A stretch of 23,647 nucleotides of DNA, taken from positions 1 through 23,647 of the forward strand of contig SVRU01000042.1 of NCBI GenBank assembly GCA_015064665.1, given 5' to 3'. Each line of letters starts with the position of its first letter. The stretch's first letter is position 1. The position numbers and the translations under genes were made by a program. The notes below the pieces were generated by a model. The model was not told the DNA's origin. It was given only the letters and a program-made list of their open reading frames with translations, and searched no databases. Positions 5,266 through 22,683 of this stretch are shown here, in pieces. This DNA is from Oscillospiraceae bacterium. Its GTDB lineage: Bacteria; Bacillota_A; Clostridia; Oscillospirales; CAG-272.

Positions 5266-6402
5266 TTATTTTTTGGCAAGATATTTTCTCATATCTACGG
5301 CACAGGCGAGAAGAATAATAAGTCCCTTTATAATATAAAGCAAATTCTGGTCTATCGAAATGAAGTTCAGTCCTACGAAAATTATTTGCAAGAGCAAAAC
5401 TCCGATGACTATTCCTCCGATTTTTCCCGTACCGCCAACAAATGAAACACCGCCTATAACGCATGCTGCAATCGCGTCGCTTTCATAGTTAAGACCGGTA
5501 TACGAAGCAATTGAGCCTATTCTTGCGCCCTCAATAAAGCCCGTTATGCCGTACATAATTCCCGCAAAGGCAAAAACGAGCAGAATCGTTTTAAAAACGT
5601 TAACTCCCGAAACGTTAGCCGCTTCTTCGTTTGAACCCACGGCAAACATGTTTTTTCCAAACACCGTTTTGTTCCATATGAACCACGTAATAACCGTTAT
5701 GATAACGGAATACAGTATATATTTCGGTACGGCTATACCGTTAATTTTGAACAGAGGACCGCTTATAAAATTCACGTAGGAGGGGTCAAGACCCGAAAGA
5801 GTCTGTCCGCCGTTATCCCCTATCTGCAGATACAGAAGAACTATACCGAATAAAATAAGCTGAGTCGACAGGGTCACGATAAAGGGATGAAGCTTGAATT
5901 TGGCTACGAAAAATCCGTTTACAAGACCTATCAGAGCGCCCGCTGCCATGACCGCAAGTAAAACAAGCGGAATCGGCAAAGCATCTATGGCGGGGAACAT
6001 TTTGTTTACGTACGAAGAGGATTGCAAAAGCGAGGCGGCAATACACGCGGTAAGACCGACCGCGCGTCCTGCCGAAATATCGGTTCCCGAAAGAACTATC
6101 GCTCCGCCTATTCCAAGCGCAATGGGTAATCTCGCCGCGGTAAGCGAAATTACATTGACAACAGATGCCGTTGAAACGAAACGCGGCTCCATAATTGCTA
6201 TTACGATAACTGCCGTTATAATAATGATATACATTGCGTTGTTAAGCACGAAATCCGAAACGATGGAAAATTTCTCTGCGGTGTCCTTATCTTTGAAATT
6301 CGAAAAACGGCTGTATAAATTTTTTGGCAGAGCTTTGATTTTAGCCGCCGTTCTGCTGTAAAACGCATCGTTTCTATTGTTATTAGTCTGATTATCTGAC
6401 AT
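5266..6402 (-). CDS. mglC: Galactose/methyl-galactoside ABC transporter permease MglC
   Basis: This is the membrane permease of a ribose/galactose-class ABC importer (BPD_transp_2 family), 378 residues. A cytoplasmic N-terminal tail of about 45 residues precedes several hydrophobic segments. Motifs close to MglC are visible: ALGIGGAIVLSGTDISAGRAVGL (family TDLSAGR), LIGLVNGFFVAKFKLHPFIVTL, FIWNKTVFGKNMFAVGSNEEA followed by VSGVNV, and SDAIAACVIGGVSFVGGTG. It is the last gene of the operon and starts 23 bases after the mglA stop. AAGGA lies upstream (about 6415-6418), with somewhat long spacing. Monomer specificity follows from similarity to MglC and from the neighbouring MglB-type binding protein; other hexoses or pentoses cannot be excluded. 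Confidence 0.93.
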   Translation of the reverse strand: MSDNQTNNNRNDAFYSRTAAKIKALPKNLYSRFSNFKDKDTAEKFSIVSDFVLNNAMYIIIITAVIVIAIMEPRFVSTASVVNVISLTAARLPIALGIGGAIVLSGTDISAGRAVGLTACIAASLLQSSSYVNKMFPAIDALPIPLVLLAVMAAGALIGLVNGFFVAKFKLHPFIVTLSTQLILFGIVLLYLQIGDNGGQTLSGLDPSYVNFISGPLFKINGIAVPKYILYSVIITVITWFIWNKTVFGKNMFAVGSNEEAANVSGVNVFKTILLVFAFAGIMYGITGFIEGARIGSIASYTGLNYESDAIAACVIGGVSFVGGTGKIGGIVIGVLLLQIIFVGLNFISIDQNLLYIIKGLIILLACAVDMRKYLAKK

Positions 6403-6425
6403 TTAAAGTTGCATCCTTTCGGGTT

Positions 6426-7946
6426 TTAAGCAAATTTTGATGCAAGCTGCATAATTTTTTCCTGCGTAAGCTCTTTACGATCGAGCTCTCCAGCGACTCT
6501 TCCGCCCGACATCACGATTATTCTGTCGCATATTCCCATGAGTTCCGCCATCTCGGATGAAACAACAATTATTCCCTTGTCAGACTTTGCAAGCTCGATT
6601 ATCAACTTGTATATTTCATATTTTGCTCCAACGTCAATACCTCTTGTCGGTTCGTCAAGCAAAAGTATTTTCGGCTTGGTCAGAAGCCATCTGCCGAGTA
6701 TAATCTTTTGTTGATTTCCGCCTGACAGAGATGCTATGCGAACCTTGTTTGACGGAGTTTTTACTCGCATTGACGATATGCACCAATCTGTTGCGGAGTT
6801 TATCTTTTTGTCGGAGAGCAGGGGACCCGTGCGATATTTTTTGATGCTGGATATCGTAGCGTTGTGGCTTATTGACAGAATGCCGAATATGCCGCTTTGC
6901 CGTCTTTCCTCGGTCAGAAGGGCAAAACCGTTTTTGATGGATTCTATAGGAGTGCGGTTGGATATTTCCTTGCCTTCAAGTCTTATCACACCTTCTGATT
7001 TGCGGCGGACGCCGAAAAGCGTTTCTAAAAGCTCGGTTCTTCCCGAGCCGTCAAGACCTGCTATGCCGAGTATTTCACCGCGCCTGAGATTAAAGCTTGC
7101 CCGGCTCAGCCTTGAGTATTTTCCGCTCAGGTTTTCTACAGTCAGCATAATATCCCGAGGATCGTTTTGCTTTTCGGGATAGCGCTCCTTTATTTCGCGC
7201 CCGACCATAAGCTTAATAATTTCGTCGGTAGTCAGCTCATCGGCAGGTTTTGTTGCTACGTGCCTGCCGTCGCGCATTATTGTGACCTCGTCGGATATGC
7301 GCAGAATCTCCTCCATTTTGTGTGATATATAAACTATTGCGCAACCGCGTTTTTTCAGCATTTCTATAATTTCAAAAAGCTTTTCTGCTTCGGTGTCGTT
7401 AAGCGACGAGGTCGGCTCGTCAAAAACGATTAATCCCGCATTGCAGGAAACTGCTTTCGCAATTTCCACCATTTGCCTTTTTGAAACCGAAAGTCTGCTC
7501 ATTTTTTCTCTCGGGTCGGTGGAGATTTTCAGCTCGTCAAATATTTTTTTGGTCATCTCGTAGCTTTTTTTCTCACTCGTAAGAGGTAAAAACCTTGATA
7601 TTTTAGGAAATCGTCCAAGCCACATATTGTCCATGACCGAAAGCTTCAATGCCTGATTCAGTTCCTGATGAACCATAGCCACGCCGTGATCAAGGGCGTC
7701 CTTTGCGCCCGAAAATTCAACCTCTTTACCTTCAAGGAATATTTTGCCGCTATCTTTTTTATAAACTCCGAAAAGGCATTTCATAAGAGTTGATTTTCCG
7801 GCACCGTTCTCTCCCATAAGAGCGTGTACCTCCCCGCGCTTCAGCGTAAGCGAAACTCTATCCAAAGCCTTAACTCCCGGGAAACTTTTGCTTATGCTTT
7901 CCATTACGATAAAGTCGGCGGAGTTTGCTTTATTTTCAGTCGGCAT
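6426..7946 (-). CDS. mglA: Galactose/methyl-galactoside ABC transporter ATPase MglA (two ATP-binding domains)
   Basis: This cytoplasmic ATPase has two fused ABC domains and drives sugar import through MglC. Domain 1 has Walker A GENGAGKST (residues 45-53), a degenerate signature LSVSKRQMVEIAKA, and Walker B LIVFDEPTSSL. Domain 2 has the atypical Walker A GLDGSGRTE normal for this subfamily, signature LSGGNQQKIILGRWL, and Walker B ILLLDEPTRGID. About 506 residues is the usual length. The ATG at 7946 is chosen; a GTG two codons earlier (7952) is also possible. Either start overlaps the mglB stop (7936), which suggests translational coupling; no strong Shine-Dalgarno is seen. It sits in the middle of the mglB-mglA-mglC operon. 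Confidence 0.94.
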   Translation of the reverse strand: MPTENKANSADFIVMESISKSFPGVKALDRVSLTLKRGEVHALMGENGAGKSTLMKCLFGVYKKDSGKIFLEGKEVEFSGAKDALDHGVAMVHQELNQALKLSVMDNMWLGRFPKISRFLPLTSEKKSYEMTKKIFDELKISTDPREKMSRLSVSKRQMVEIAKAVSCNAGLIVFDEPTSSLNDTEAEKLFEIIEMLKKRGCAIVYISHKMEEILRISDEVTIMRDGRHVATKPADELTTDEIIKLMVGREIKERYPEKQNDPRDIMLTVENLSGKYSRLSRASFNLRRGEILGIAGLDGSGRTELLETLFGVRRKSEGVIRLEGKEISNRTPIESIKNGFALLTEERRQSGIFGILSISHNATISSIKKYRTGPLLSDKKINSATDWCISSMRVKTPSNKVRIASLSGGNQQKIILGRWLLTKPKILLLDEPTRGIDVGAKYEIYKLIIELAKSDKGIIVVSSEMAELMGICDRIIVMSGGRVAGELDRKELTQEKIMQLASKFA

Positions 7947-9000
7947 CGTCACCGGTATAAGCAGAATAAGGAATATTTACGCGCCATTTTCCAACCGCGT
8001 ATTCGTCATCGATATTCATAAAAATATCGTTTCCGCCAATGAAATTGTTTGCGATAGTTACTATTGCTTCTGCCATTCCCTCGGCATCCTGCTTTATCGT
8101 TCCCGCCATAACGCCGGCGTTGATTTTGTTCTTTGCGGCATCGGTGGCGTCTACTCCGAAAACGGGAATGGTTTTAGCTCCGCTTTTATTGTATCCCGCT
8201 TCGTTAAGGGCGGCAATTGCGCCAAGCGCCATCTCGTCGTTATTTGCAATAACCAGCTCTACCATGTTTTTATTGGCTTCGCTGTACGCCGACAGAATAG
8301 TTTTCATATGATTGTTTGCCGCGGCATTAGACCAGTTTCCGTCCTGGTCGACGAGATATCCGTTAGGATTTCTCTGATCGTAAAAATAAAGCTTCGGCTT
8401 TCCGTTTTCTTCGAGTATTTTGTTTGCATCCTCCACCGCATAGCGCGTTCTTGCCTCTGCCTCGGCGTTTCCTTGCTGACCTTTAAAAAGGCAGTAGGAT
8501 ATTTTTCCGTCGCCGTTAAGGTCGATTTTACTATAGTTTTCAAGGACGTATTCGCCTATAAGCTTGCCCTGCATATGTCCTGCCATTTCGTAATCCGTTC
8601 CTACGAAAATGCACTTGTCATAGCTTTCCACAACGCTCTGGCTGACCGAACGGTTAAAGAAAATAAGCGGAACGTTTGCCGCTTTTGCCTTTTCCACAAT
8701 CGTTCTTGCGGCATCGTCCGAGCCGGTGTCAACAACGTTCACGATGAGCATTTTCGTGCCCTTTGAAATTGCGGTATCGATTTGCTCGGTTTGCGTGGTC
8801 TGATTGCTGTTGGCATCGTAGTTGTGGTAATCCAGTCCGGATTTTTTGAGTATTTCGTTCATTTCTGCACGAACACCCGAGATGTAGGTGTCACTGTAAG
8901 TGTAATAAAAAACAGAAACCTCCTCTGCGCCTCTGCCGCAGGAAACGAATGAAGTCAGTGCCGCGGCAAGTATTAATAACAGTAATATAGTCTTCTTCAT
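7936..9000 (-). CDS. mglB: Galactose/glucose-binding lipoprotein MglB
   Basis: This is the extracytoplasmic solute-binding protein of the importer, tethered as a lipoprotein: signal peptide MKKTILLLLILAAALTSF, lipobox FVSC with Cys21. The periplasmic-binding-protein fold is typical, with family segments VIANNDEMALGAIAAL and GVDATDAAKNKINAGVMAGT. An EF-hand-like calcium loop DLNGDGKIS followed by KGQQGNAEAEART closely parallels the Ca2+ site of E. coli galactose/glucose-binding protein, which favours galactose/glucose over ribose. The start at 9000 has AGGAG at 9006-9010 and begins the signal peptide; an upstream in-frame start at 9039 would put 13 residues before it and has no such support. 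About 354 residues. It is the first gene of the operon. Confidence 0.93.
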   Translation of the reverse strand: MKKTILLLLILAAALTSFVSCGRGAEEVSVFYYTYSDTYISGVRAEMNEILKKSGLDYHNYDANSNQTTQTEQIDTAISKGTKMLIVNVVDTGSDDAARTIVEKAKAANVPLIFFNRSVSQSVVESYDKCIFVGTDYEMAGHMQGKLIGEYVLENYSKIDLNGDGKISYCLFKGQQGNAEAEARTRYAVEDANKILEENGKPKLYFYDQRNPNGYLVDQDGNWSNAAANNHMKTILSAYSEANKNMVELVIANNDEMALGAIAALNEAGYNKSGAKTIPVFGVDATDAAKNKINAGVMAGTIKQDAEGMAEAIVTIANNFIGGNDIFMNIDDEYAVGKWRVNIPYSAYTGDDAD

Positions 9001-9029
9001 AAGAACTCCTTTTTTGTTTGTTAGCGTTA

Positions 9030-9058
9030 TTTTTAGCAAAAATTGTGAATATATTCAC
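9030..9058 (-). promoter_or_regulatory. Tentative promoter of the mglBAC operon
   Basis: On the minus strand an extended -10, TGcTAAAAA (hexamer 9030-9035), lies 17 bases from a poor -35, GTGAAT (9053-9058). A weak -35 would fit an activated or repressed sugar operon. This is only the best candidate in the 9001-9132 intergenic region; transcription start mapping would be needed. Confidence 0.3.
9045..9058. promoter_or_regulatory. 14-bp perfect palindrome, possible operator between mglB and the FAD dehydrogenase
   Basis: GTGAATATATTCAC is a perfect palindrome. It is placed between divergent genes and overlaps the tentative mgl -35 region. It ends about 17 bases before the -35 of the opposite promoter. 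No regulator gene lies beside it, so the binding protein is unknown. Confidence 0.4.
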
Positions 9059-10711: not shown

Positions 10712-10763
10712 AATAGAAAAAGAAGATTTTGCTTTTTAAGCAGCAAAATCTTCTTTTTCTATT
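10712..10763. terminator. Bidirectional terminator between the FAD dehydrogenase and the AraC gene
   Basis: A perfect 22-bp inverted repeat (10712-10733 and 10742-10763) with an 8-base loop. The right arm is T-rich on the plus strand, and the A-rich left arm gives a T-rich tail on the minus strand. It lies between converging genes and can end both transcripts. Confidence 0.8.
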
Positions 10764-10797: not shown

Positions 10798-11601
10798 TTA
10801 CAGATTCCTTGTTCTGTTTCTGTAAGCGCGAGGCGAAAGTCCATATTTTTGCTTGAATCTTCTTGAGAAGTAAAACTGGTCGGAAAATCCGAGCCGTTCG
10901 CTGATTTCCAAAAAAGAAAGATTTGTATTCATTATAAGGTGCGAAGCCTCTGACAGAAGAACGCTATACAAATATTCCTGTATTGACATTGACAGCTCTT
11001 TTCTGAATTGCTTTGTAAGTTTGCTTTTTGAAACGAATGAATTTGTTGCTATTTCGCTTGTAGTTAATTTTGCAGAGAGATTTGCCGAAATGTATTTTAC
11101 GGCATTGAAAACACATTCGGAAATAAACGTTTCTTCAATGGATATGCCGCTTACTGTCAGAATTTGAAGAACAGCCTCATATATGTACCGCTTTACCGTC
11201 AGTATACTTAATAAATCATTGGAATTATCAAAAAGATTAAATAAAATATCGGGAACTTTTTCTGCACGGACGGTCAGCGGTTCTTTTAAATGGCGAAGTA
11301 TATCAAGCCTGTCAAGCCCTGTGAGCTGTATGTGAAAATAAATATGCTCCATATGATCTTCGCAATAATATTCAAAATTATAACCCGCAGGGATCAAATA
11401 CCAGTTTCCGCTAGACAGCTTCAGCGTTTTGTTTTTGTTTTGAATAACGCAACCGCCCCTGTGAACGTAGTAGAGATAAGAAAAAGTTCTGTTTATTGAT
11501 TCGCCCTTCCACCTTGGCGAAATTTTTGCATGTCCGTATGTAAGCAGGGTCAGTGTGATTTGATTAGCTTTTTCACAAAGGTTGGTATTCTTTATATTCA
11601 T
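10798..11601 (-). CDS. AraC-family transcriptional regulator (rhamnosidase operon)
   Basis: A 267-residue regulator with an N-terminal cupin-type sensing domain (ISPRWKGESINRTFSYLYYV, GNWYLIPAGYNFEYY) and a C-terminal double helix-turn-helix of the AraC/XylS family (SKSKLTKQFRKELSMSIQEY, then LSFLEISERLGFSDQFYFSR and the closing FKQKYGLSPRAYR). The ATG at 11601 is preferred: GGAGA is seven bases upstream (11609-11613), whereas the in-frame ATG at 11628 lacks a ribosome site. It is divergent from the SGNH/rhamnosidase operon, and its promoter overlaps that operon's promoter. By the usual arrangement of AraC regulators it probably controls those genes in response to a sugar, perhaps rhamnose or a rhamnoside; the ligand is inferred, not seen. 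Confidence 0.9.
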   Translation of the reverse strand: MNIKNTNLCEKANQITLTLLTYGHAKISPRWKGESINRTFSYLYYVHRGGCVIQNKNKTLKLSSGNWYLIPAGYNFEYYCEDHMEHIYFHIQLTGLDRLDILRHLKEPLTVRAEKVPDILFNLFDNSNDLLSILTVKRYIYEAVLQILTVSGISIEETFISECVFNAVKYISANLSAKLTTSEIATNSFVSKSKLTKQFRKELSMSIQEYLYSVLLSEASHLIMNTNLSFLEISERLGFSDQFYFSRRFKQKYGLSPRAYRNRTRNL

Positions 11602-15980: not shown

Positions 15981-17258
15981 TCACCCTTTTTTCACTATAA
16001 CGGATATGCCATCGGGTATAGCCGTGACGGTCGGATTTTCTTTTCCGAGCATTTTTTTTGCAATCTCCAGCGCCTCTTCAATTGAGTGTGCAGGGGTCAT
16101 GTGCATCTTTTTCACCGTTTCGTCGGGGATTTCGGAAACGTATATAACCTTTACCTTCTCCAGAATTCTGAGAAGTATCTGCGTTTGCCATTGGTCGGGA
16201 AGCGTTTCGCATCTCTTCTGAAGCGAAAAGGCTTTCATGGTTTTTGAGATATCCTCTTCGTCTGCAAGTTGGTGATAGAGGTCGTCGCCGCCTATTCCGT
16301 CGTCTGATTTTGCGAGCATTATAATTACTCCCCCATCCTTTACCGTGGCTTCTGCCGCGGTCATACCCTTTACCGCTTGATATACGTTCTGGTCAAGAGG
16401 ATATCCGCCGTTCGTGGATATCGCGATATCGGCAGGGCAGGATTTGACCTCGCAAAGCTTTGAAAGAAATTCCGTGCCTTTAAGATGCGCTTTGACCGTG
16501 TCGCCCGCTACAGCGTAAATGACCTCTTTTTTAGCATTCAGCACAACGTTAACGATAAACGCAAGCTTTGCCTTGTTTGCCGCCCAAAGCATATCATTGT
16601 GAATAGGGTTTCCGTCAAGTATTCCCGTTCTTGACGAGGGGTGGCTTATAAATTCGAAGCAGTGATTTCCAAGCACGGTTTTTCTTGCCGAAATTCCGGG
16701 AAGAACGCTTTTTCTTCCTCCCGAGAAGCCCGCAAAGAAATGCGGCTCGATAAATCCCTCCGAAACCAAAAGATCGGCGTTGTATGCAATCGAATTTATG
16801 ATACAAGGCTCGCCCGACGGGAGAGTGCCTATGTTAACAAGCTTATCTTCCTCGTCGCAATCGTGTACGTATATATTTTCGTTTTCAACGATCTCTTCTC
16901 CGAATTTTGATATAAGCTCGTCTTTTCTCGTTGCTCTGTGGCAGCCGGTTGCGATCAAAATTGTTATTTTTGCATCAGGATTTGTTCGTCTTATTTCCTC
17001 CAGCATAAGCGGCATTATGATTTTGCTCGGAACGGGTCGCGTGTGGTCGCTTGCAATTATCACAATATTGCTTTTTCCCTTTGCCAGATCTGAGAGCCTC
17101 GGGGAGTTTATCGGGTTTTCGAGAGCTGCTTTTACGATTTCGGTTTCCGAAAGCTCGGTTTTGTAGTTATGAATCGAGGATCCAAGAACGGATATAAGGT
17201 TTTCACCGAAGGTGTAATCAAGCTTTTCTTTTCCGTAGGGGAAATAAACCGTTTGCAT
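15981..17258 (-). CDS. larA: LarA-family nickel-pincer racemase/epimerase
   Basis: A 425-residue homologue of lactate racemase LarA, which uses the nickel-pincer nucleotide (NPN) cofactor to invert 2-hydroxy acids. Signature segments are SDHTRPVP and ATGCHRATRKDEL. The residues known in Lactiplantibacillus plantarum LarA are all present, offset by one: His107 and His173 (catalytic, numbers 108 and 174 there), Lys183 (cofactor tether, 184) in FAGFSGGRKS, and His199 (nickel ligand, 200). The cofactor-synthesis genes larB, larC and larE are not in the window. The LarA superfamily also contains malate, phenyllactate and sugar-acid (gluconate 2-epimerase) members, so lactate is not assured. GAGGAAT at 17264-17270 supports the start. 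It diverges from the amidohydrolase operon and may share its regulatory element. Rhamnose breakdown can yield L-lactate, one possible link. Confidence 0.88.
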   Translation of the reverse strand: MQTVYFPYGKEKLDYTFGENLISVLGSSIHNYKTELSETEIVKAALENPINSPRLSDLAKGKSNIVIIASDHTRPVPSKIIMPLMLEEIRRTNPDAKITILIATGCHRATRKDELISKFGEEIVENENIYVHDCDEEDKLVNIGTLPSGEPCIINSIAYNADLLVSEGFIEPHFFAGFSGGRKSVLPGISARKTVLGNHCFEFISHPSSRTGILDGNPIHNDMLWAANKAKLAFIVNVVLNAKKEVIYAVAGDTVKAHLKGTEFLSKLCEVKSCPADIAISTNGGYPLDQNVYQAVKGMTAAEATVKDGGVIIMLAKSDDGIGGDDLYHQLADEEDISKTMKAFSLQKRCETLPDQWQTQILLRILEKVKVIYVSEIPDETVKKMHMTPAHSIEEALEIAKKMLGKENPTVTAIPDGISVIVKKG

Positions 17259-17350: not shown

Positions 17351-17370
17351 AGCAATATTATCCTAAAAAA
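17351..17370 (+). promoter_or_regulatory. Shared upstream element, copy 1 (AGCAA-N4-ATCCTAAAAAA)
   Basis: This 20-base element begins 34 bases before the -35 start of the amidohydrolase operon and about 29 bases upstream of the divergent larA -35. An identical core occurs at 20264-20283 at the same distance from the next promoter, and a reversed near-copy lies at 21771-21790. The position, centred near -60, suits an AraC-type activator site. The A tract could alternatively be an UP element. Confidence 0.6.
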
Positions 17371-17384
17371 AAGCACAAAAGTAG

Positions 17385-17413
17385 TTGAAAAAGGCGAATA
17401 TCTGTGCTAAAAT
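17385..17413 (+). promoter_or_regulatory. Promoter of the triple amidohydrolase operon
   Basis: TTGAAA (17385-17390), 17 bases, then extended -10 TGcTAAAAT (TAAAAT at 17408-17413). The surrounding TGTGcTAAAATAAA is repeated with one change at the DegT promoter. Start near 17420. Confidence 0.75.
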
Positions 17414-17430
17414 AAAAGCGCAATGACACA

Positions 17431-17443
17431 GCGCGCGTCGCGC
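17431..17443 (+). promoter_or_regulatory. GC-only hairpin in the amidohydrolase leader
   Basis: GCGCG, CGT loop, CGCGC: a small perfect hairpin just before AAGGAG (17446-17451). In an otherwise AT-rich leader it stands out. It might act as an operator or as an mRNA 5' stabiliser; no direct evidence distinguishes these. Confidence 0.35.
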
Positions 17444-17457
17444 GTAAGGAGCTTTTT

Positions 17458-18354
17458 ATGGAACAGATCAGAAAAATCGACGTACACGCTCATGCTTCTA
17501 TATTCTCGGACATTGCTCCGGGACACAGCAGAAAGCATAGTGAATACAGCTGGCTCAGCCCGGAACAGCTTATAGATTTTTACGATAAGCTTAATATTGA
17601 AAAGGGCGTGCTTCTTCCGATGCCTGCACCCGAAGGTCTTCTCAGTACGGTGTCGAGCGAGGAATGTAACTATATTGCAACTCTTCACCCCGACAGATTC
17701 GTTTGGAGCTGCTGCGTTGACCCCAGAGCTTTCACAAACACAAGCGATGCCGACCTTGGATATGCCCTTGAGCATTACGTTGCCCGCGGTGCAAGAAGTG
17801 TCGGCGAGGTTACCGCTAATATTTATCTTGACGACCCGAGAGCCATGAACCTTTTCGGATTCTGTAACGAAATGGGACTTGCCGTAACTATGCATTACGC
17901 TACCGAGGTTGGAAGATCCTACGGCCTTGTTGACGATTACGGTCTTCCAAGACTTGAAAAGGTCTTGAAAACCTATCCTAATCTCAAAATATTCGGTCAC
18001 TCACAGCGCTTCTGGTGCGAAATGGGTGACAATGCAAAGGATAGCTCATATCCTACAGGACCCGTCAAGAACGGAAAAATTCCCGAGCTTATGCGCAAAT
18101 ATCCTAACCTTTATTGCGAATTTTCAAACGACAGCGGCTCAAGAGCTCTTATGCGCGACCGTGAGCACGCCGCTAAATTCATAGAGGAATTCTCCGACAG
18201 AATTATGTATGCTTGCGATATTTGCTCAACTCGTGATAAGTTTATGTTTGCTTTTGATGAATTCCTTACGTCAATGCGCGAGAGTGGCGAGATAAGCGAG
18301 GAGAACTACCGTAAGCTCGTCCGTGAAAACGCTGTGAGAATTCTCAAACTGTAA
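17458..18354 (+). CDS. Amidohydrolase-family (COG2159-like) TIM-barrel metal enzyme, paralogue 1
   Basis: A 298-residue metal-dependent hydrolase or decarboxylase of the amidohydrolase-2 type. Putative metal and catalytic residues are His10 and His12 (DVHAH), Glu117 (GEV), His146 (TMHYAT), His181 (GHSQ) and Asp254 (YACDIC), in the order expected for the superfamily. Family relatives include ACMSD-type decarboxylases and lactonases, so the reaction cannot be named. It is the most diverged of three tandem paralogues but keeps their conserved block SNDSGSRALMRDREHAAKF and the C-terminus EFLTSMRESGE. AAGGAG at 17446-17451 supports the start. It leads an operon with the next two genes (27- and 19-base gaps). 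Leucine codons are mostly CTT/CTC, suggesting strong expression. No signal peptide: cytoplasmic. Confidence 0.88.
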   Translation: MEQIRKIDVHAHASIFSDIAPGHSRKHSEYSWLSPEQLIDFYDKLNIEKGVLLPMPAPEGLLSTVSSEECNYIATLHPDRFVWSCCVDPRAFTNTSDADLGYALEHYVARGARSVGEVTANIYLDDPRAMNLFGFCNEMGLAVTMHYATEVGRSYGLVDDYGLPRLEKVLKTYPNLKIFGHSQRFWCEMGDNAKDSSYPTGPVKNGKIPELMRKYPNLYCEFSNDSGSRALMRDREHAAKFIEEFSDRIMYACDICSTRDKFMFAFDEFLTSMRESGEISEENYRKLVRENAVRILKL

Positions 18355-18381
18355 AAATATTTTCCTGTAGAGGAGGTTATT

Positions 18382-19317
18382 ATGGAGTCTGTAAAGAAGA
18401 TTGATGTGCATGCTCATGCACACGCATTTCAGCAGTTTATTCCGCCCATGGTGAGAGGACCTAAGCTTATCTCTCCCGAGGAGCTTATTGCTTGGTATGA
18501 TAAATTGAATATTGAGTTTGGTATTCTTCAGCCGGTCGTTGCTCCCGAGGCTCAGCCTGTCACTATTTCAAACGAAAACGTTATTTACACAGTTCAAAAA
18601 TATCCCGAAAGATTTATATGGTTCTGCAACGTAGATGCAAGAGCTGTCAATAACAGACCGGACAGTAATCTCGGATACGTTCTTGAGCATTACAAGGCTA
18701 TGGGCGCAAAGGGATTTGGGGAGCTTACAACCCATCTTCCCATTGATGACCCCAAGATGCAAAATCTTTTCGGATACTGTCAGGAGCTTGATCTTCCAAT
18801 CACTATACACGTCTCAACGGTTGATGACGGAGATTACGGAATAATTGACGAGCTTGGACTTCCGAAGCTTGAAAAGCTTCTCAAATCCTTCCCAAAGCTT
18901 AAAATAATCGGTCACTCACAGGCATTCTGGCGTGAGATGGGGGATAATCCCGTAAGCGACGGCAGAATTATAGGTAACTATCCTACGGGAAAGGTTCGGG
19001 AGGGAAGAGTTCCCGAGCTTCTCAGAAGATACGAGAATCTTTATGCAGACCTTTCTAATGACAGCGGCTCAAGATCCTTGATGCGTGACCGTGAGCACGC
19101 GGCAAAATTTATGGAGGAATTCTCCGATAAATTGATGTATGCCTGCGATATATGCTCTAACGTTGATGCATTTATGATACCGTTTGACGAGTTCCTTACG
19201 TCAATGCGCGAGAGCAGCGAGCTTAGTGACAAAAACTACCGCAAGATTGTACGCGAAAATGCAATAAGAATACTTAATCTTGAGGATATGGTTGAAAAAT
19301 CATCCTCAAAAAAATGA
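18382..19317 (+). CDS. Amidohydrolase-family (COG2159-like) TIM-barrel metal enzyme, paralogue 2
   Basis: A 311-residue paralogue of the gene before it and especially of the gene after it, with which it shares long identical stretches such as GFGELTTHLPIDDPKMQNLF. The putative metal residues are retained: His10/His12 in DVHAH, Glu in GFGEL, His in TIHVST, His in IGHSQ, Asp in YACDIC. An insertion, VSDGRIIGN, before the YPTGKV loop and a charged Ser/Lys tail set it apart. GAGGAGGT about ten bases upstream gives a strong start. Three retained copies with intact motifs argue for division of labour (related substrates, or a hetero-oligomer) or gene dosage, not decay. The reaction is unknown. Confidence 0.88.
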   Translation: MESVKKIDVHAHAHAFQQFIPPMVRGPKLISPEELIAWYDKLNIEFGILQPVVAPEAQPVTISNENVIYTVQKYPERFIWFCNVDARAVNNRPDSNLGYVLEHYKAMGAKGFGELTTHLPIDDPKMQNLFGYCQELDLPITIHVSTVDDGDYGIIDELGLPKLEKLLKSFPKLKIIGHSQAFWREMGDNPVSDGRIIGNYPTGKVREGRVPELLRRYENLYADLSNDSGSRSLMRDREHAAKFMEEFSDKLMYACDICSNVDAFMIPFDEFLTSMRESSELSDKNYRKIVRENAIRILNLEDMVEKSSSKK

Positions 19318-19336
19318 TATTAAGGAGTAAGGCAAT

Positions 19337-20245
19337 ATGTTAGAACCAATCAAAAAGATAGACGTGCACGCGCACGGCACAGCGTTTGCTCAGTATACGC
19401 CCAAATTTCGCAACGGCACAACCTGGCCAACTGCCGAGGATCTTATTCATTTTTATGATTTGCTGAATATCGAGCTTGGTGTTTTGCAGCCACTCGTAGC
19501 GCCTGAGGCGCTGAACTTTACAATGACCAACGAAAACTGCAAGTTCATGGTTGATCAGCATCCCGAAAGATTTACCTGGTTTTGTAATGTAGATGCAAGA
19601 GCTATAAAAAATTCACCTGACTCCGATCTCGGCAGTCTTCTTGAGCATTATATGTCACTCGGAGCAAAGGGCTTCGGCGAGCTTACTACCCACTTACCCA
19701 TTGACGACCCTAAAATGCAGAATCTTTTCGGATACTGTCAGGAGCTTGGACTTCCCGTTACCATACATATGTCCACCAAGATAGACGGTGAGTACGGAAT
19801 AATGGATGAGGTTGGACTTCCTAAGCTTGAAAAACTTCTTAAAACCCATCCCAAACTTAAAATTATAGGTCACTCTCAGTCCTTCTGGCGCGAAATAGGA
19901 GATAATCCCGTTGGCTCTTATCCCACAGGACCTGTAAAGAACGGAAGAATTCCCGTTCTTCTCCGTGAATACGAAAATCTTTACGCAGACCTCTCAAACG
20001 ACAGCGGCTCCAGAGCATTGATGCGTGACCGTGAGCATGCGGCAAGATTTATGGAGGAGTTTTCTGATAAGCTTATGTACGCCTGCGATATCTGCTCGCC
20101 TTCTAATAGCTTTATGATTCCGTTTGACGAATTTTTGACCTCAATGCGCGAGAGCGGAGAGCTCAGCGATAAAAATTACCGCAAGATAGTCCGCGAAAAC
20201 GCTATCAGAATTCTTAAGCTTGAGGATCTTGTTGGTAAAAATTGA
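19337..20245 (+). CDS. Amidohydrolase-family (COG2159-like) TIM-barrel metal enzyme, paralogue 3
   Basis: A 302-residue third tandem copy. Metal-site motifs are again complete: His11/His13 (DVHAH), Glu in GFGEL, His in TIHMST, IGHSQ, and YACDIC. It is closest to paralogue 2 and probably the product of the most recent duplication in the array. AAGGAG lies about ten bases upstream. The largest differences among the three copies are in the early substrate-facing loop after DVHAH and in the segment after CDIC, the places expected to set specificity. No strong terminator follows; 132 bases later a separate promoter drives the DegT-type gene, so readthrough into it is possible. Confidence 0.88.
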   Translation: MLEPIKKIDVHAHGTAFAQYTPKFRNGTTWPTAEDLIHFYDLLNIELGVLQPLVAPEALNFTMTNENCKFMVDQHPERFTWFCNVDARAIKNSPDSDLGSLLEHYMSLGAKGFGELTTHLPIDDPKMQNLFGYCQELGLPVTIHMSTKIDGEYGIMDEVGLPKLEKLLKTHPKLKIIGHSQSFWREIGDNPVGSYPTGPVKNGRIPVLLREYENLYADLSNDSGSRALMRDREHAARFMEEFSDKLMYACDICSPSNSFMIPFDEFLTSMRESGELSDKNYRKIVRENAIRILKLEDLVGKN

Positions 20246-20263
20246 TAATTTCTGCATGAAAAA

Positions 20264-20283
20264 AGCAAAAAAATCCTAAAAAA
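20264..20283 (+). promoter_or_regulatory. Shared upstream element, copy 2 (AGCAA-N4-ATCCTAAAAAA)
   Basis: All 16 defined positions are identical to copy 1 at 17351-17370, and the distance to the -35 box is the same (34 bases start to start). Outside the element and the promoter boxes the two upstream regions differ considerably, which argues for functional conservation over recent duplication of the whole region. Confidence 0.6.
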
Positions 20284-20297
20284 TAACAATATATCAT

Positions 20298-20326
20298 TTG
20301 AATTTATTTAATTTATGTGATAAAAT
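20298..20326 (+). promoter_or_regulatory. Promoter of the DegT-type aminotransferase gene
   Basis: TTGAAT (20298-20303), 17 bases, then extended -10 TGaTAAAAT (TAAAAT at 20321-20326). Start near 20333, leaving a leader of about 45 bases. Confidence 0.75.
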
Positions 20327-20363
20327 AAATTCGAAATCAAACAACGTAACGATTATAATTTAA

Positions 20364-20377
20364 AAGGAGATATACAT
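20364..20377 (+). promoter_or_regulatory. Very strong ribosome binding site of the DegT-type gene
   Basis: AAGGAGATATACAT directly precedes the ATG. Including the ATG, 17 bases are identical to the phage T7 gene 10 leader familiar from pET vectors. The flanking bases differ and all surroundings are native-looking, so it reads as a natural optimal Shine-Dalgarno. Confidence 0.85.
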
Positions 20378-21721
20378 ATGTCAAAACTTGCACTTCTTGG
20401 CGGTTCCAAGGTATTTGAGGAACCAATTCCGAAGGACGTACACAAATGGCTCTTTAAGTGGCCTATAATCGGTGAAGAGGATGAGCAGGCGGCTCTCCAG
20501 GTTATAAGAGATAACTCTTATTCAAGAAGCGATATTTCAGAAAAATTTGAACAGGAATTTTGCGAATGGATCGGTGCTAAACACGGTCTTGTATTCTGTA
20601 ACGGAACTATGTCCTTGCACGCTGCAATGTTTGCTGTCGGACTTGGTGTAGGCGATGAGATAATCTGCCCCACAAAGACCTATTGGGCAAGCATTACTTC
20701 TGCATTCAATTTTGGTGCTACCCCTGTATTCTGTAACGTTGGCGAGGATCTTAATATGGATCCCGATGATCTTGAAAGATGCATCTCCCCCAAGACCAAG
20801 GCAATTATGGTAGTTCATTATTCGGGTCTTCCTTGCGATATGGACAGAATAATGGCTTTTGCTAAAAAACATAACATTAAGGTTATTGAGGACGTATCGC
20901 ATGCACAAGGCGGTCTTTACAAGGGCAGAAGACTTGGAACAATCGGCGACGTTGGCGCTATGTCTATGATGAGCGGAAAGTCATTTGCTGCGGGTGAACT
21001 TGGTATCCTTATTACAAATGAGAAAAAGTATCACGAGAGAGCTATTGCTTTTGCTCATTACGACAGAAACAATCCCGAGAACATAACTGATGACGAGGAG
21101 CTTAAAGGTTATACCGGTCTTCCTATGGGCGGTCTTAAGGGAAGAGCTAACCAGCTTTGCGTTGCTCTTGCACGCGTTCAGCTTAAGTACTATGATGAAA
21201 GATGTGCCGAGATCCGCCGCGCTATGAACTATTTCTGCGATCTCGTTGAGGGAACACCTGGTATTATCGTAATCAGAGCTAACGAAGAGGAAGGCTCTAA
21301 CATGGCGGGCTGGTATTCTCCTCACTTTGGATACAGACCTGAGGAGCTTGGCGGTCTTTCTGTTGAGCGCTTTGTTGAGGCTGTTCGCGCAGAGGGCGTT
21401 GGCTGTCATGCGGGTGCAAACTTCTGCCTCCACACACATAGACTCTTCAAGGATTGCGACGTGTTCCATACAGGCAAGCCGACGAGAATCGCGTTTGCTG
21501 ACCGTGACGTTCGTGAGCTTGATGCAGCTTGTGACCTCTCTCTTACCCGATACTGCTTCTCTATTCCTTGGTTCAAACACTTTGATAAGGAATGGATTGA
21601 AAAGTATGCTTCCGTATATCGCAAGGTAGCTGAAAACTACAAGGATCTTCTTCCCGGTGATACCAACAGAGTCCTTGAGGGCAGATGGTACGGAATGGAA
21701 AACGATAAGGCTGCAAGATAA
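20378..21721 (+). CDS. DegT/DnrJ/EryC1/StrS-family PLP-dependent aminotransferase
   Basis: A 447-residue fold-type I PLP enzyme of the sugar-aminotransferase family. It opens with LALLGGSKVFEEPIP, typical of the family. NGTMSLHAAMFAVGLGVGDE forms the cofactor phosphate region, EDVSHAQGGLYKGRRLGTIGD carries Asp172, which contacts the pyridine nitrogen, and MSGKSFAAGELG holds Lys201, the Schiff-base lysine. Presence of Lys, not the His of DegT-type dehydratases, indicates transamination. Members act on keto sugars, cyclitols or related ketones; the substrate here is unknown. It has its own promoter, an optimal ribosome site and strongly biased codons (leucine almost always CTT/CTC), suggesting abundant protein and a catabolic or central role, not a minor biosynthetic one. 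The matching upstream element ties it to the amidohydrolase operon. No nucleotide-sugar genes surround it. Confidence 0.92.
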   Translation: MSKLALLGGSKVFEEPIPKDVHKWLFKWPIIGEEDEQAALQVIRDNSYSRSDISEKFEQEFCEWIGAKHGLVFCNGTMSLHAAMFAVGLGVGDEIICPTKTYWASITSAFNFGATPVFCNVGEDLNMDPDDLERCISPKTKAIMVVHYSGLPCDMDRIMAFAKKHNIKVIEDVSHAQGGLYKGRRLGTIGDVGAMSMMSGKSFAAGELGILITNEKKYHERAIAFAHYDRNNPENITDDEELKGYTGLPMGGLKGRANQLCVALARVQLKYYDERCAEIRRAMNYFCDLVEGTPGIIVIRANEEEGSNMAGWYSPHFGYRPEELGGLSVERFVEAVRAEGVGCHAGANFCLHTHRLFKDCDVFHTGKPTRIAFADRDVRELDAACDLSLTRYCFSIPWFKHFDKEWIEKYASVYRKVAENYKDLLPGDTNRVLEGRWYGMENDKAAR

Positions 21722-21742
21722 TCGGTTTTTACTAGTGTCTAT

Positions 21743-21776
21743 AAAGAGCAGGCAACTCGCTTGTCTGCTCTTTTTT
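21743..21776 (+). terminator. Intrinsic terminator of the DegT-type gene
   Basis: A 13-bp stem with one G-U pair (21743-21755 and 21761-21773), a 5-base loop and a T run to 21776. The T run also forms the first bases of the reversed regulatory element copy at 21771-21790. Confidence 0.85.
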
Positions 21777-21790
21777 AGGATAAATTTGCA
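21771..21790 (-). promoter_or_regulatory. Shared regulatory element, copy 3 (reverse orientation, one mismatch)
   Basis: The plus strand reads TTTTTTAGGAT-N4-TTGCA, the reverse complement of AGCAA-N4-ATCCTAAAAAA except for one end base. It lies 26 bases before the start codon of the AraC gene, where binding could give autoregulation. Six of its bases coincide with the terminator T run, so only the remaining bases are independent evidence. Confidence 0.45.
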
Positions 21791-21816: not shown

Positions 21817-22683
21817 ATGAAGAAATCAAACGTATATTTTTTTAACGAACCTTTTCATATATCAATACGCCCGTATAAAGAGTCTGTTGTTAAGTATCAA
21901 AGCGATACAGCACGTATTTTGCATGAGGCGATAGAGATAAAATGTTTTTACGAAGGGAAATCTACTTTGCTGATAGAGTCAGATAAGATAGAAGTATCAG
22001 CCGGTGACATAGTAGTCGTCAACCCTTACGAGTTTCATCAAACGCTTGATGACGGAGGCGAAAACAGGGGAAAGTATCATCTTTTTATGGTTGAGCTTGA
22101 TTTTTTCTCCGGACTGAAAAACGTGGATATGGATCTGCGCCATTTCGTTTGCGAAAACAGAACTTCATTCAAAAACTACTATAAGCAAAATGGGGTTATG
22201 TTCAACATTTTATCCAAGGTTGTGAAAGAGCATGAAATTTCAGATGAATCCACCCGTCTTGCTATTTTTGGGCTTATGGCTGAATTTTTCGCGCAGCTTT
22301 TAAGATGCGGAAGAAACGAGGAACGTGAGCCAACAGACGATTCCGCTCATTATCAGAGTATAATTGCGCCTGCAATTGAAATGATCAGGGAAAGATATGC
22401 TGAATCGATCAGTCTTGAGGAGCTTGCCGAAGTCTGCAGTATCAGCAAGTTTCATTTTTGCCGTATCTTCAAAAAGGTTACGGAAATGAGCGTTATTCAG
22501 TACGTAAACAGCTACCGTCTTAAGATAGCCAATACCATGATAATAAACACGAATAAGCAAATAAGTGAAATTGCAAGCCTTTGCGGTTATGATGACGTAA
22601 GCTATTTTTGCAGAATTTACAAAAAGCATTTCGGCTGTACTCCCAAAAAGGCAAAGCTTGATAATTCTAACGTGAAGCCCTGA
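21817..22683 (+). CDS. AraC-family transcriptional regulator (amidohydrolase/DegT cluster)
   Basis: A 288-residue regulator. The N-terminal cupin-like domain (LHEAIEIKCFYEGKSTLLIE, AGDIVVVNPYEFHQTLDDGG) senses a ligand; the C-terminal AraC/XylS double helix-turn-helix is complete (SLEELAEVCSISKFHFCRIF, then ISEIASLCGYDDVSYFCRIY and the closing HFGCTPKKAK). The only ribosome site is a modest GGTGA a few bases upstream. No promoter with a usable start site is visible between the DegT terminator and the ATG, so expression may depend on readthrough or a weak promoter. Codon use is ordinary, unlike the enzyme genes before it. The element found upstream of the amidohydrolase operon, DegT and this gene makes it the best candidate for the local regulator. 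Confidence 0.9.
   Translation: MKKSNVYFFNEPFHISIRPYKESVVKYQSDTARILHEAIEIKCFYEGKSTLLIESDKIEVSAGDIVVVNPYEFHQTLDDGGENRGKYHLFMVELDFFSGLKNVDMDLRHFVCENRTSFKNYYKQNGVMFNILSKVVKEHEISDESTRLAIFGLMAEFFAQLLRCGRNEEREPTDDSAHYQSIIAPAIEMIRERYAESISLEELAEVCSISKFHFCRIFKKVTEMSVIQYVNSYRLKIANTMIINTNKQISEIASLCGYDDVSYFCRIYKKHFGCTPKKAKLDNSNVKP

Follow-up and report, generated by a model that had tools for sequence, protein, structure and literature searches.

To our knowledge, few AraC-family regulators from uncultured gut Clostridia have a known binding site, target set or inducer, and the locus described here raises the question of which promoters one such protein might serve. The window, meaning the whole 23,647-nucleotide (nt) stretch of Oscillospiraceae bacterium DNA analysed in this work (contig SVRU01000042.1), carries three amidohydrolase genes in one operon, a gene for a DegT-family aminotransferase and an AraC-family gene at 21817 (Table 1). 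From the letters alone, an original prediction had named a 20-base-pair (bp) element, AGCAA-N4-ATCCTAAAAAA, as a single activator site linking all three into one regulon. On comparison with relatives this single site was replaced by a tandem one. With a probability of roughly 0.8, judged from sequence, the element represents one half, the upstream one, of an AraC-type tandem operator that the 21817 protein would use as an activator.

The element is present without mismatch at 17351-17370 and 20264-20283, both on the forward strand (copies 1 and 2), and with one mismatch at 21790-21771 on the reverse strand (copy 3), exactly where the three copies had been placed. At up to three mismatches the window holds four matches against a mean of 0.79 in shuffled sequence, and four or more were seen in one of 100 shuffles. 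Copies 1 and 2 start 34 nt 5' of the -35 within a common context, TGTGnTAAAATAAA, and the promoters that follow match the consensus in the form TTGAAW-17-TAAAAT with TG ahead of the -10, which bears out both the offset and the extended -10 claimed for the pair. Absent from the earlier list were AGCA at 17372 and AACA at 20285; measured from where the first half-site begins, each lies exactly 21 nt further on, and both extend into the -35.

A predicted tandem operator ahead of related gene clusters

Matches to the 21817 protein were found in 15 of 295 genomes from the family of G001 (at 1e-30), 4 of 21 from the family of G003 (1e-45), 5 of 301 from the family of G002, 14 of 394 from the order of G001 and 1 of 255 from its class (1e-40), and among further genomes in 2 of 121 relatives of G489 (1e-50) and 3 of 117 relatives of G178 (genomes are numbered with G and loci with L throughout). 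No AraC protein above 45% identity was listed in any of these genome searches; the nearest relatives are protein clusters 69-74% identical, and the three closest named ones come from metagenome-assembled genomes of a Clostridia, a Clostridiales and an Oscillospiraceae bacterium. Relatives of 29-45% identity adjoin the same amidohydrolase and DegT genes, most commonly in the order AraC, amidohydrolase, DegT, and 27 of 33 stretches combine an AraC protein of at least 30% identity with an amidohydrolase or DegT protein of at least 36%. The cluster includes a Gfo/Idh-type gene in L002 and L043 (by Pfam) and in other loci by likeness of the protein start, an M55 gene lies 3' of AraC-amidohydrolase-DegT in L002, and L078 additionally carries a LarA that is 69% identical. 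One AraC relative (G712:C92:3490-4257) was reported with a single TAA within the matched stretch.

Upstream regions of many of these loci contain AGCAATATTGTCCAA-N6-RKCAA-N7-CATTGA, a direct repeat that enters the -35 with a period of 21 bp in 22 of 24 collected sites and of 20 bp in the other two (L038 and L070). A 39-bp model was built from 20 of the 24, leaving out the two with 20-bp spacing and two near-duplicates, and excluding the window. Over these 20 sites (positions counted from 0) each base of AGCAA is conserved in 18-20, positions 7 and 12 are T and C, respectively, in all 20, and the second half retains CAA and CATTG in 18-20. The six positions that match the A-run of window copy 1 are A in only 6-13 of the 20 sites, and the part kept in relatives is AGCAATATT[G/A]TCC[A/T]A. 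The bounds originally drawn were therefore wrong on three counts, as the 'N4' stretch, TATT in copy 1, is in fact conserved, the A6 tail is variable and the downstream half-site had been overlooked. Two boxes one helical turn apart, AGC-N7-TCC, are common to both forward window copies and most relatives.

The spacing from operator to promoter is nearly fixed. In 30 promoters (the 24 collected sites, four further loci and the two of the window, with the -35 placed by best fit) the first base of the -35 lies 35 nt beyond that of the first half-site in 27 and 34 nt beyond it in three, including both in the window, where TTGA stands one base closer than in most relatives. A -10 matching at least four of six bases follows in all 30, against 28.8% of 20,000 AT-rich control 90-mers given the same free fit and 4.2% at a fixed position. 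The pattern also emerges from a seed-free word count upstream of AraC, amidohydrolase and DegT genes, with near-duplicates and AraC-less loci left out: the commonest 8-mer, AGCAATAT, occurs in 11 of 27 loci, and the best word in 50 control draws never exceeded 7.

The original prediction had proposed a motif search upstream of orthologous clusters, and that search found the site beside the AraC, amidohydrolase and DegT relatives. With each locus and its close kin removed from the model in turn, 19 of 27 loci scored at least 13 within 250 nt upstream. Below 13 were L043, L044, L046, L053, L074, L079, L080 and L081; in L043 and L079-L081 the site precedes the Gfo/Idh-type gene of the cluster instead. 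Loci that were never part of the model scored 30.6 (L041), 14.6 (L042), 29.4 (L043) and 19.2 (L045). In a later-drawn genome, G1131, the sole AraC-bearing one of 255, a site scoring 33.9 lies between AraC and DegT. It begins where the AraC match reaches its 3' end, some 110 nt short of the DegT match, and the next best score in that 5.5-kb contig is 3.0.

Specificity of the operator models

When the window was scanned with the 39-bp model, the three copies were the top three matches (21.1 at 17351 forward, 16.0 at 21790 reverse and 13.4 at 20264 forward). The fourth, 7.5 at 17072 on the reverse strand, lies in larA coding sequence, and since nothing else in the window exceeds it, the model predicts no target in the rhamnosidase operon or among the ABC transporter genes. 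Best matches in 100 random first-order copies of the window had a mean of 6.4, a standard deviation of 3.1 and a maximum of 15.3. None of 2 million random intergenic-like positions reached the top two window scores, and 1.5 per million reached the third. A 17-bp model of the first half alone gave 22.6, 13.0 and 11.3 for copies 1, 2 and 3 (ranks 1, 3 and 4), with the same larA position second at 18.7, and only copy 1 beat all 100 random copies, whose best was 19.7.

Across 680 kb of collected loci, 39 distinct sites scored at least 12 and none did so with the reversed matrix. Many of the 39 had gone into the model or had been located with the pattern, and a few low scorers fall within coding sequence; the count therefore bears on specificity only. 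The two-half pattern, allowed up to two mismatches, was matched 25 times in 22 of 394 genomes against seven matches when written backward. It occurs in 12 of 14 AraC-bearing genomes and 10 of 380 others (Fisher 2.3e-15), and on the AraC contig itself in 11 of the 14 (Fisher 1.5e-13), an association that is partly circular as the pattern was written from some of the genomes tested. A looser pattern at up to three mismatches was found in 43 of 67 genomes (85 matches against 32 backward). At up to two mismatches it was found in 4 of 9 AraC-bearing genomes and 2 of 58 others (Fisher 0.002), the four being G084, which is in the model, G178 and G243, which had been seen earlier, and G1131, which was new; at that stringency none was present in the AraC-bearing G257, G287, G193, G189 and G190.

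Twelve exact matches to the half-site AGCAATATTRTCCNA were found in 24 whole genomes, eight at AraC clusters, two before Peptidase_M55 genes, one near DegT in G659 and one in a coding-like context (G752:C34). The G659 half-site (L116:2399, contig C34) equals window copy 1 over 15 nt and lies 68 nt before a DegT relative (57%); it stands without a second half, downstream of a promoter-like stretch.

Several results weigh against the operator reading. The seeds were chosen by eye after the window had been seen, and four of the 27 loci (L044, L046, L053 and L074) have no site at or above the threshold. In those 24 genomes the half-site with one mismatch is no commoner forward than backward (43 matches and 45). 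The second half of copy 1 has C, G and T where 19-20 of the 20 relative sites have A, C and A. With a model of the second half alone, neither downstream half-site of the window is among the eight best matches, and adding the second half to the first moves copy 1 from 22.6 to 21.1 and copy 2 from 13.0 to 13.4, the weight of the model lying in the first half.

Proposed regulation and rival readings

The 21817 protein has the make-up expected of an AraC-family regulator. Its C-terminal double helix-turn-helix is recognised by Pfam (PF00165 at 78.1 bits, cut-off 26.6, and PF12833), and its structure model (mean predicted local distance difference test score 85.9, predicted template modelling score 0.59) has a beta-rich, cupin-like N-terminal domain that resembles the regulatory domains of AraC, RhaR and BgaR in Foldseek; the Pfam family PF02311 has no match in it, yet is present in the relative P0003. 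From the half-sites and their spacing we infer a sigma-A promoter with an AraC-type tandem operator joined to it, in which a dimer of this protein would bind the two direct-repeat half-sites 21 bp apart, with a pair of helix-turn-helix units recognising the A-box (GCAA) and B-box (TCC or TGC) of each. Bound at the promoter-proximal half-site, which overlaps the -35, the protein would assist RNA polymerase in initiating transcription of the amidohydrolase operon and the DegT gene once its cupin domain has sensed the presumed inducer, a metabolite of the pathway. The earlier idea of one regulator site common to these two targets, most simply for the 21817 protein, is strengthened by the other genomes and the AraC-type layout, and the activator role given to it is the best reading.

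The same protein on the same operator might act as a repressor, its -35 half-site blocking RNA polymerase until an inducer releases it. The proximal half does cover the -35, and several of the promoters are strong, such as TTGACA-17-TATAAT in L048 and L050; however, many other -35 boxes among the promoters examined are weak, and tandem AraC-family sites upstream of Caldicellulosiruptor promoters are interpreted as activator sites in the available part of PMC8579813, which makes repression unlikely. That the site belongs to another regulator, for example the AraC protein at 10798 or a global factor, is very unlikely: half-sites of this grammar are common to the AraC family and similar ones lie near other AraC genes (L149, L151, L153), but the conserved neighbour of the site in relatives is of the 21817 type, and the 10798 type is the best match in only 2 of 33 loci (L040 and L079, at 27-28% identity).

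Two readings that dispense with a regulator were rejected. Because the window copies end in A runs just 5' of good promoters, the common letters could be AT-rich, promoter-strengthening UP-element sequence alone, a caveat of the original prediction that is scarcely credible now that the A-run is seen to vary over the 20 relative sites while AGCAATATTGTCC stays. Chance, or the recent copying of a piece of promoter inside the window, would account for the agreement of the forward copies at all specified bases and in spacing; this is just as hard to credit, given that the sequences around the copies diverge and that the element recurs in distant relatives, at loci with an AraC protein only 29-45% identical.

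Activation by the 21817 protein thus stays the favoured reading for copies 1 and 2, whereas control of larA from copy 1 and membership of the AraC gene itself in the regulon are less certain. In favour of the latter, copy 3 is the second-best match to the 39-bp model, and its first half scores 11.3 with the 17-bp model, a level that about 4 in 100,000 random intergenic positions attain, which gives a chance of roughly 1% over the 95-nt gap on both strands. Against it, copy 3 faces away from this gene, and the terminator hairpin and T tract of the DegT gene supply both its second half and its A-run; copy 3 ends 26 nt 5' of the AraC ATG and overlaps the T run, as had been cautioned. In L040, L042 and L082 a forward site precedes the AraC gene itself, which makes autoregulation plausible in the family, and copy 3 may confer it on the 21817 gene. 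In that case the terminator of the DegT gene would also serve as one half of an inverted operator, and expression of the AraC gene could be coupled to the protein that it encodes.

Beyond the clusters, G730 and G845 carry two-half sites on further contigs, ahead of Peptidase_M55 genes (the G730 gene by Pfam); the 14 kb covered in G730 contain no AraC-like match, and G845 has one of 25% identity. A site also precedes a putative lipoprotein gene without Pfam match in G090. With slightly better than even odds, a module of about 64 bp, operator and promoter in near-fixed geometry, marks an undescribed regulon and an uncharacterised pathway in several groups of gut Clostridia, including cluster-leading and unlinked genes; this estimate is set lower because the second half-sites of the window are degenerate. 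The module would then precede the gene at the head of each cluster, be it amidohydrolase, DegT, Gfo/Idh or AraC, as well as Peptidase_M55 and lipoprotein genes that are unlinked to it, and would define a pathway that annotation alone does not. A searchable 39-bp operator would turn an orphan neighbourhood of amidohydrolase, DegT aminotransferase, Gfo/Idh dehydrogenase, Peptidase_M55 and LarA into one testable pathway and would yield a reporter for finding the inducer. It would also mean that an AraC operator can remain recognisable between regulators only about 40% identical.

Eight further matches to the two-half pattern or model (L148-L155) lie near other genes, among them a pair of oxidoreductase-like genes (L148, L149), an ABC transporter that follows a fragment of AraC (L153) and a dehydrogenase divergent from an AraC gene (L151). 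They may serve other members of the AraC family whose operators follow the same grammar.

Neighbouring genes and known systems

The three amidohydrolases form a tandem of paralogues (17458-20245), the first two 60-74% identical to the third, and relatives carry one to four (four in a row in L080). In amidohydrolase 3 an HxH motif, two more His and an Asp are invariant or nearly so across 14 relatives. No PDB sequence matched the amidohydrolase at 0.001, and its fold resembles amidohydrolase-2 proteins and ACMSD-type decarboxylases. The DegT protein falls under every NCBIfam cut-off listed. LarA exceeds that for lactate racemase (613 against 460 bits).

Elsewhere in the window, a very long terminator-like hairpin of 20 counted pairs (10714-10761, reverse strand) adjoins the AraC gene at 10798. 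An ABC transporter-like set of permease, ATPase and binding-protein-like open reading frames (5266-9039, reverse) has no operator match in the window scan. A secreted-looking protein of repeated G-W-Y/W-D-F...AKW units (184-1926, reverse) is one that we take to be an InlB-type repeat protein. A search of a plasmid collection gave one match, covering 2% of the query.

Table 1. Positions of the operator elements, promoters and genes in the window
Feature	Position	Strand	Basis
Copy 1, upstream half-site AGCAATATTATCCTAAA, amidohydrolase promoter operator	17351..17367	+	Sequence; top match of the 39-bp and 17-bp models (other genomes)
Copy 1, candidate downstream half-site AGCACAAAAGTAGTTGA, overlaps -35, degenerate	17372..17388	+	Sequence; position as in relatives
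Promoter of amidohydrolase operon, TTGAAA-17-TAAAAT, TG before -10	17385..17413	+	
Copy 2, upstream half-site AGCAAAAAAATCCTAAA, DegT promoter operator	20264..20280	+	Sequence; third-best 39-bp match in window
Copy 2, candidate downstream half-site AACAATATATCATTTGA, overlaps -35, degenerate	20285..20301	+	Sequence; comparison with relatives
Promoter of DegT gene, TTGAAT-17-TAAAAT, TG before -10	20298..20326	+	
Copy 3, inverted candidate operator, second half inside terminator hairpin	21752..21790	-	Second-best 39-bp match (16.0)
Terminator hairpin and T run 3' of DegT, overlapping copy 3	21745..21776	+	
AraC-family regulator, proposed binder of the sites	21817..22683	+	Pfam, structure model, Foldseek
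larA-type gene, divergent from amidohydrolase operon	15981..17258	-	Pfam and NCBIfam
Amidohydrolase 1 (PF04909)	17458..18354	+	Pfam
Amidohydrolase 2 (PF04909), 74% identical to amidohydrolase 3	18382..19317	+	Pfam
Amidohydrolase 3 (PF04909)	19337..20245	+	Pfam
DegT/DnrJ/EryC1/StrS-family aminotransferase	20378..21721	+	Pfam

A search of the open literature, without subscription papers or regulon databases, by operator words and by the AraC-amidohydrolase-DegT cluster found no earlier description of the regulon. The arrangement itself has precedents. At araBAD of E. coli the second AraC half-site overlaps the -35. According to the available part of PMC4514859, the half-sites there read TAGC-N7-TCCATA and, near the -35, TAGC-N7-ACCTGA, and the AGC-N7-TCCA of the window half-site agrees with the former. 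Unlike E. coli AraC, the 21817 regulator is distant (62.1 bits against the NCBIfam equivalog PRK10572, short of the cut-off of 208) and its proposed targets are not arabinose genes. The same source describes two direct-repeat half-sites with a 21-bp period, as here, for XylS at Pm and MekR at PmekA, whose letters differ (TGCA-N6-GGNTA and CACC-N5-CTTCAA), and reports that MtlR of Pseudomonas fluorescens needs two similar 15-bp blocks at PmtlE (-72 to -58 and -50 to -36). These blocks, too, precede the -35, and a poly-A tract adjoins the first of them, but they are 22 bp apart and serve mannitol genes. Direct repeats with 21-bp periodicity are likewise predicted for AraC-family rhamnose regulators of Bacillales, Bacteroides and Enterococcus in the portion of PMC3870299 available, where, unlike here, the targets are rhamnose genes and the motifs are called unique.

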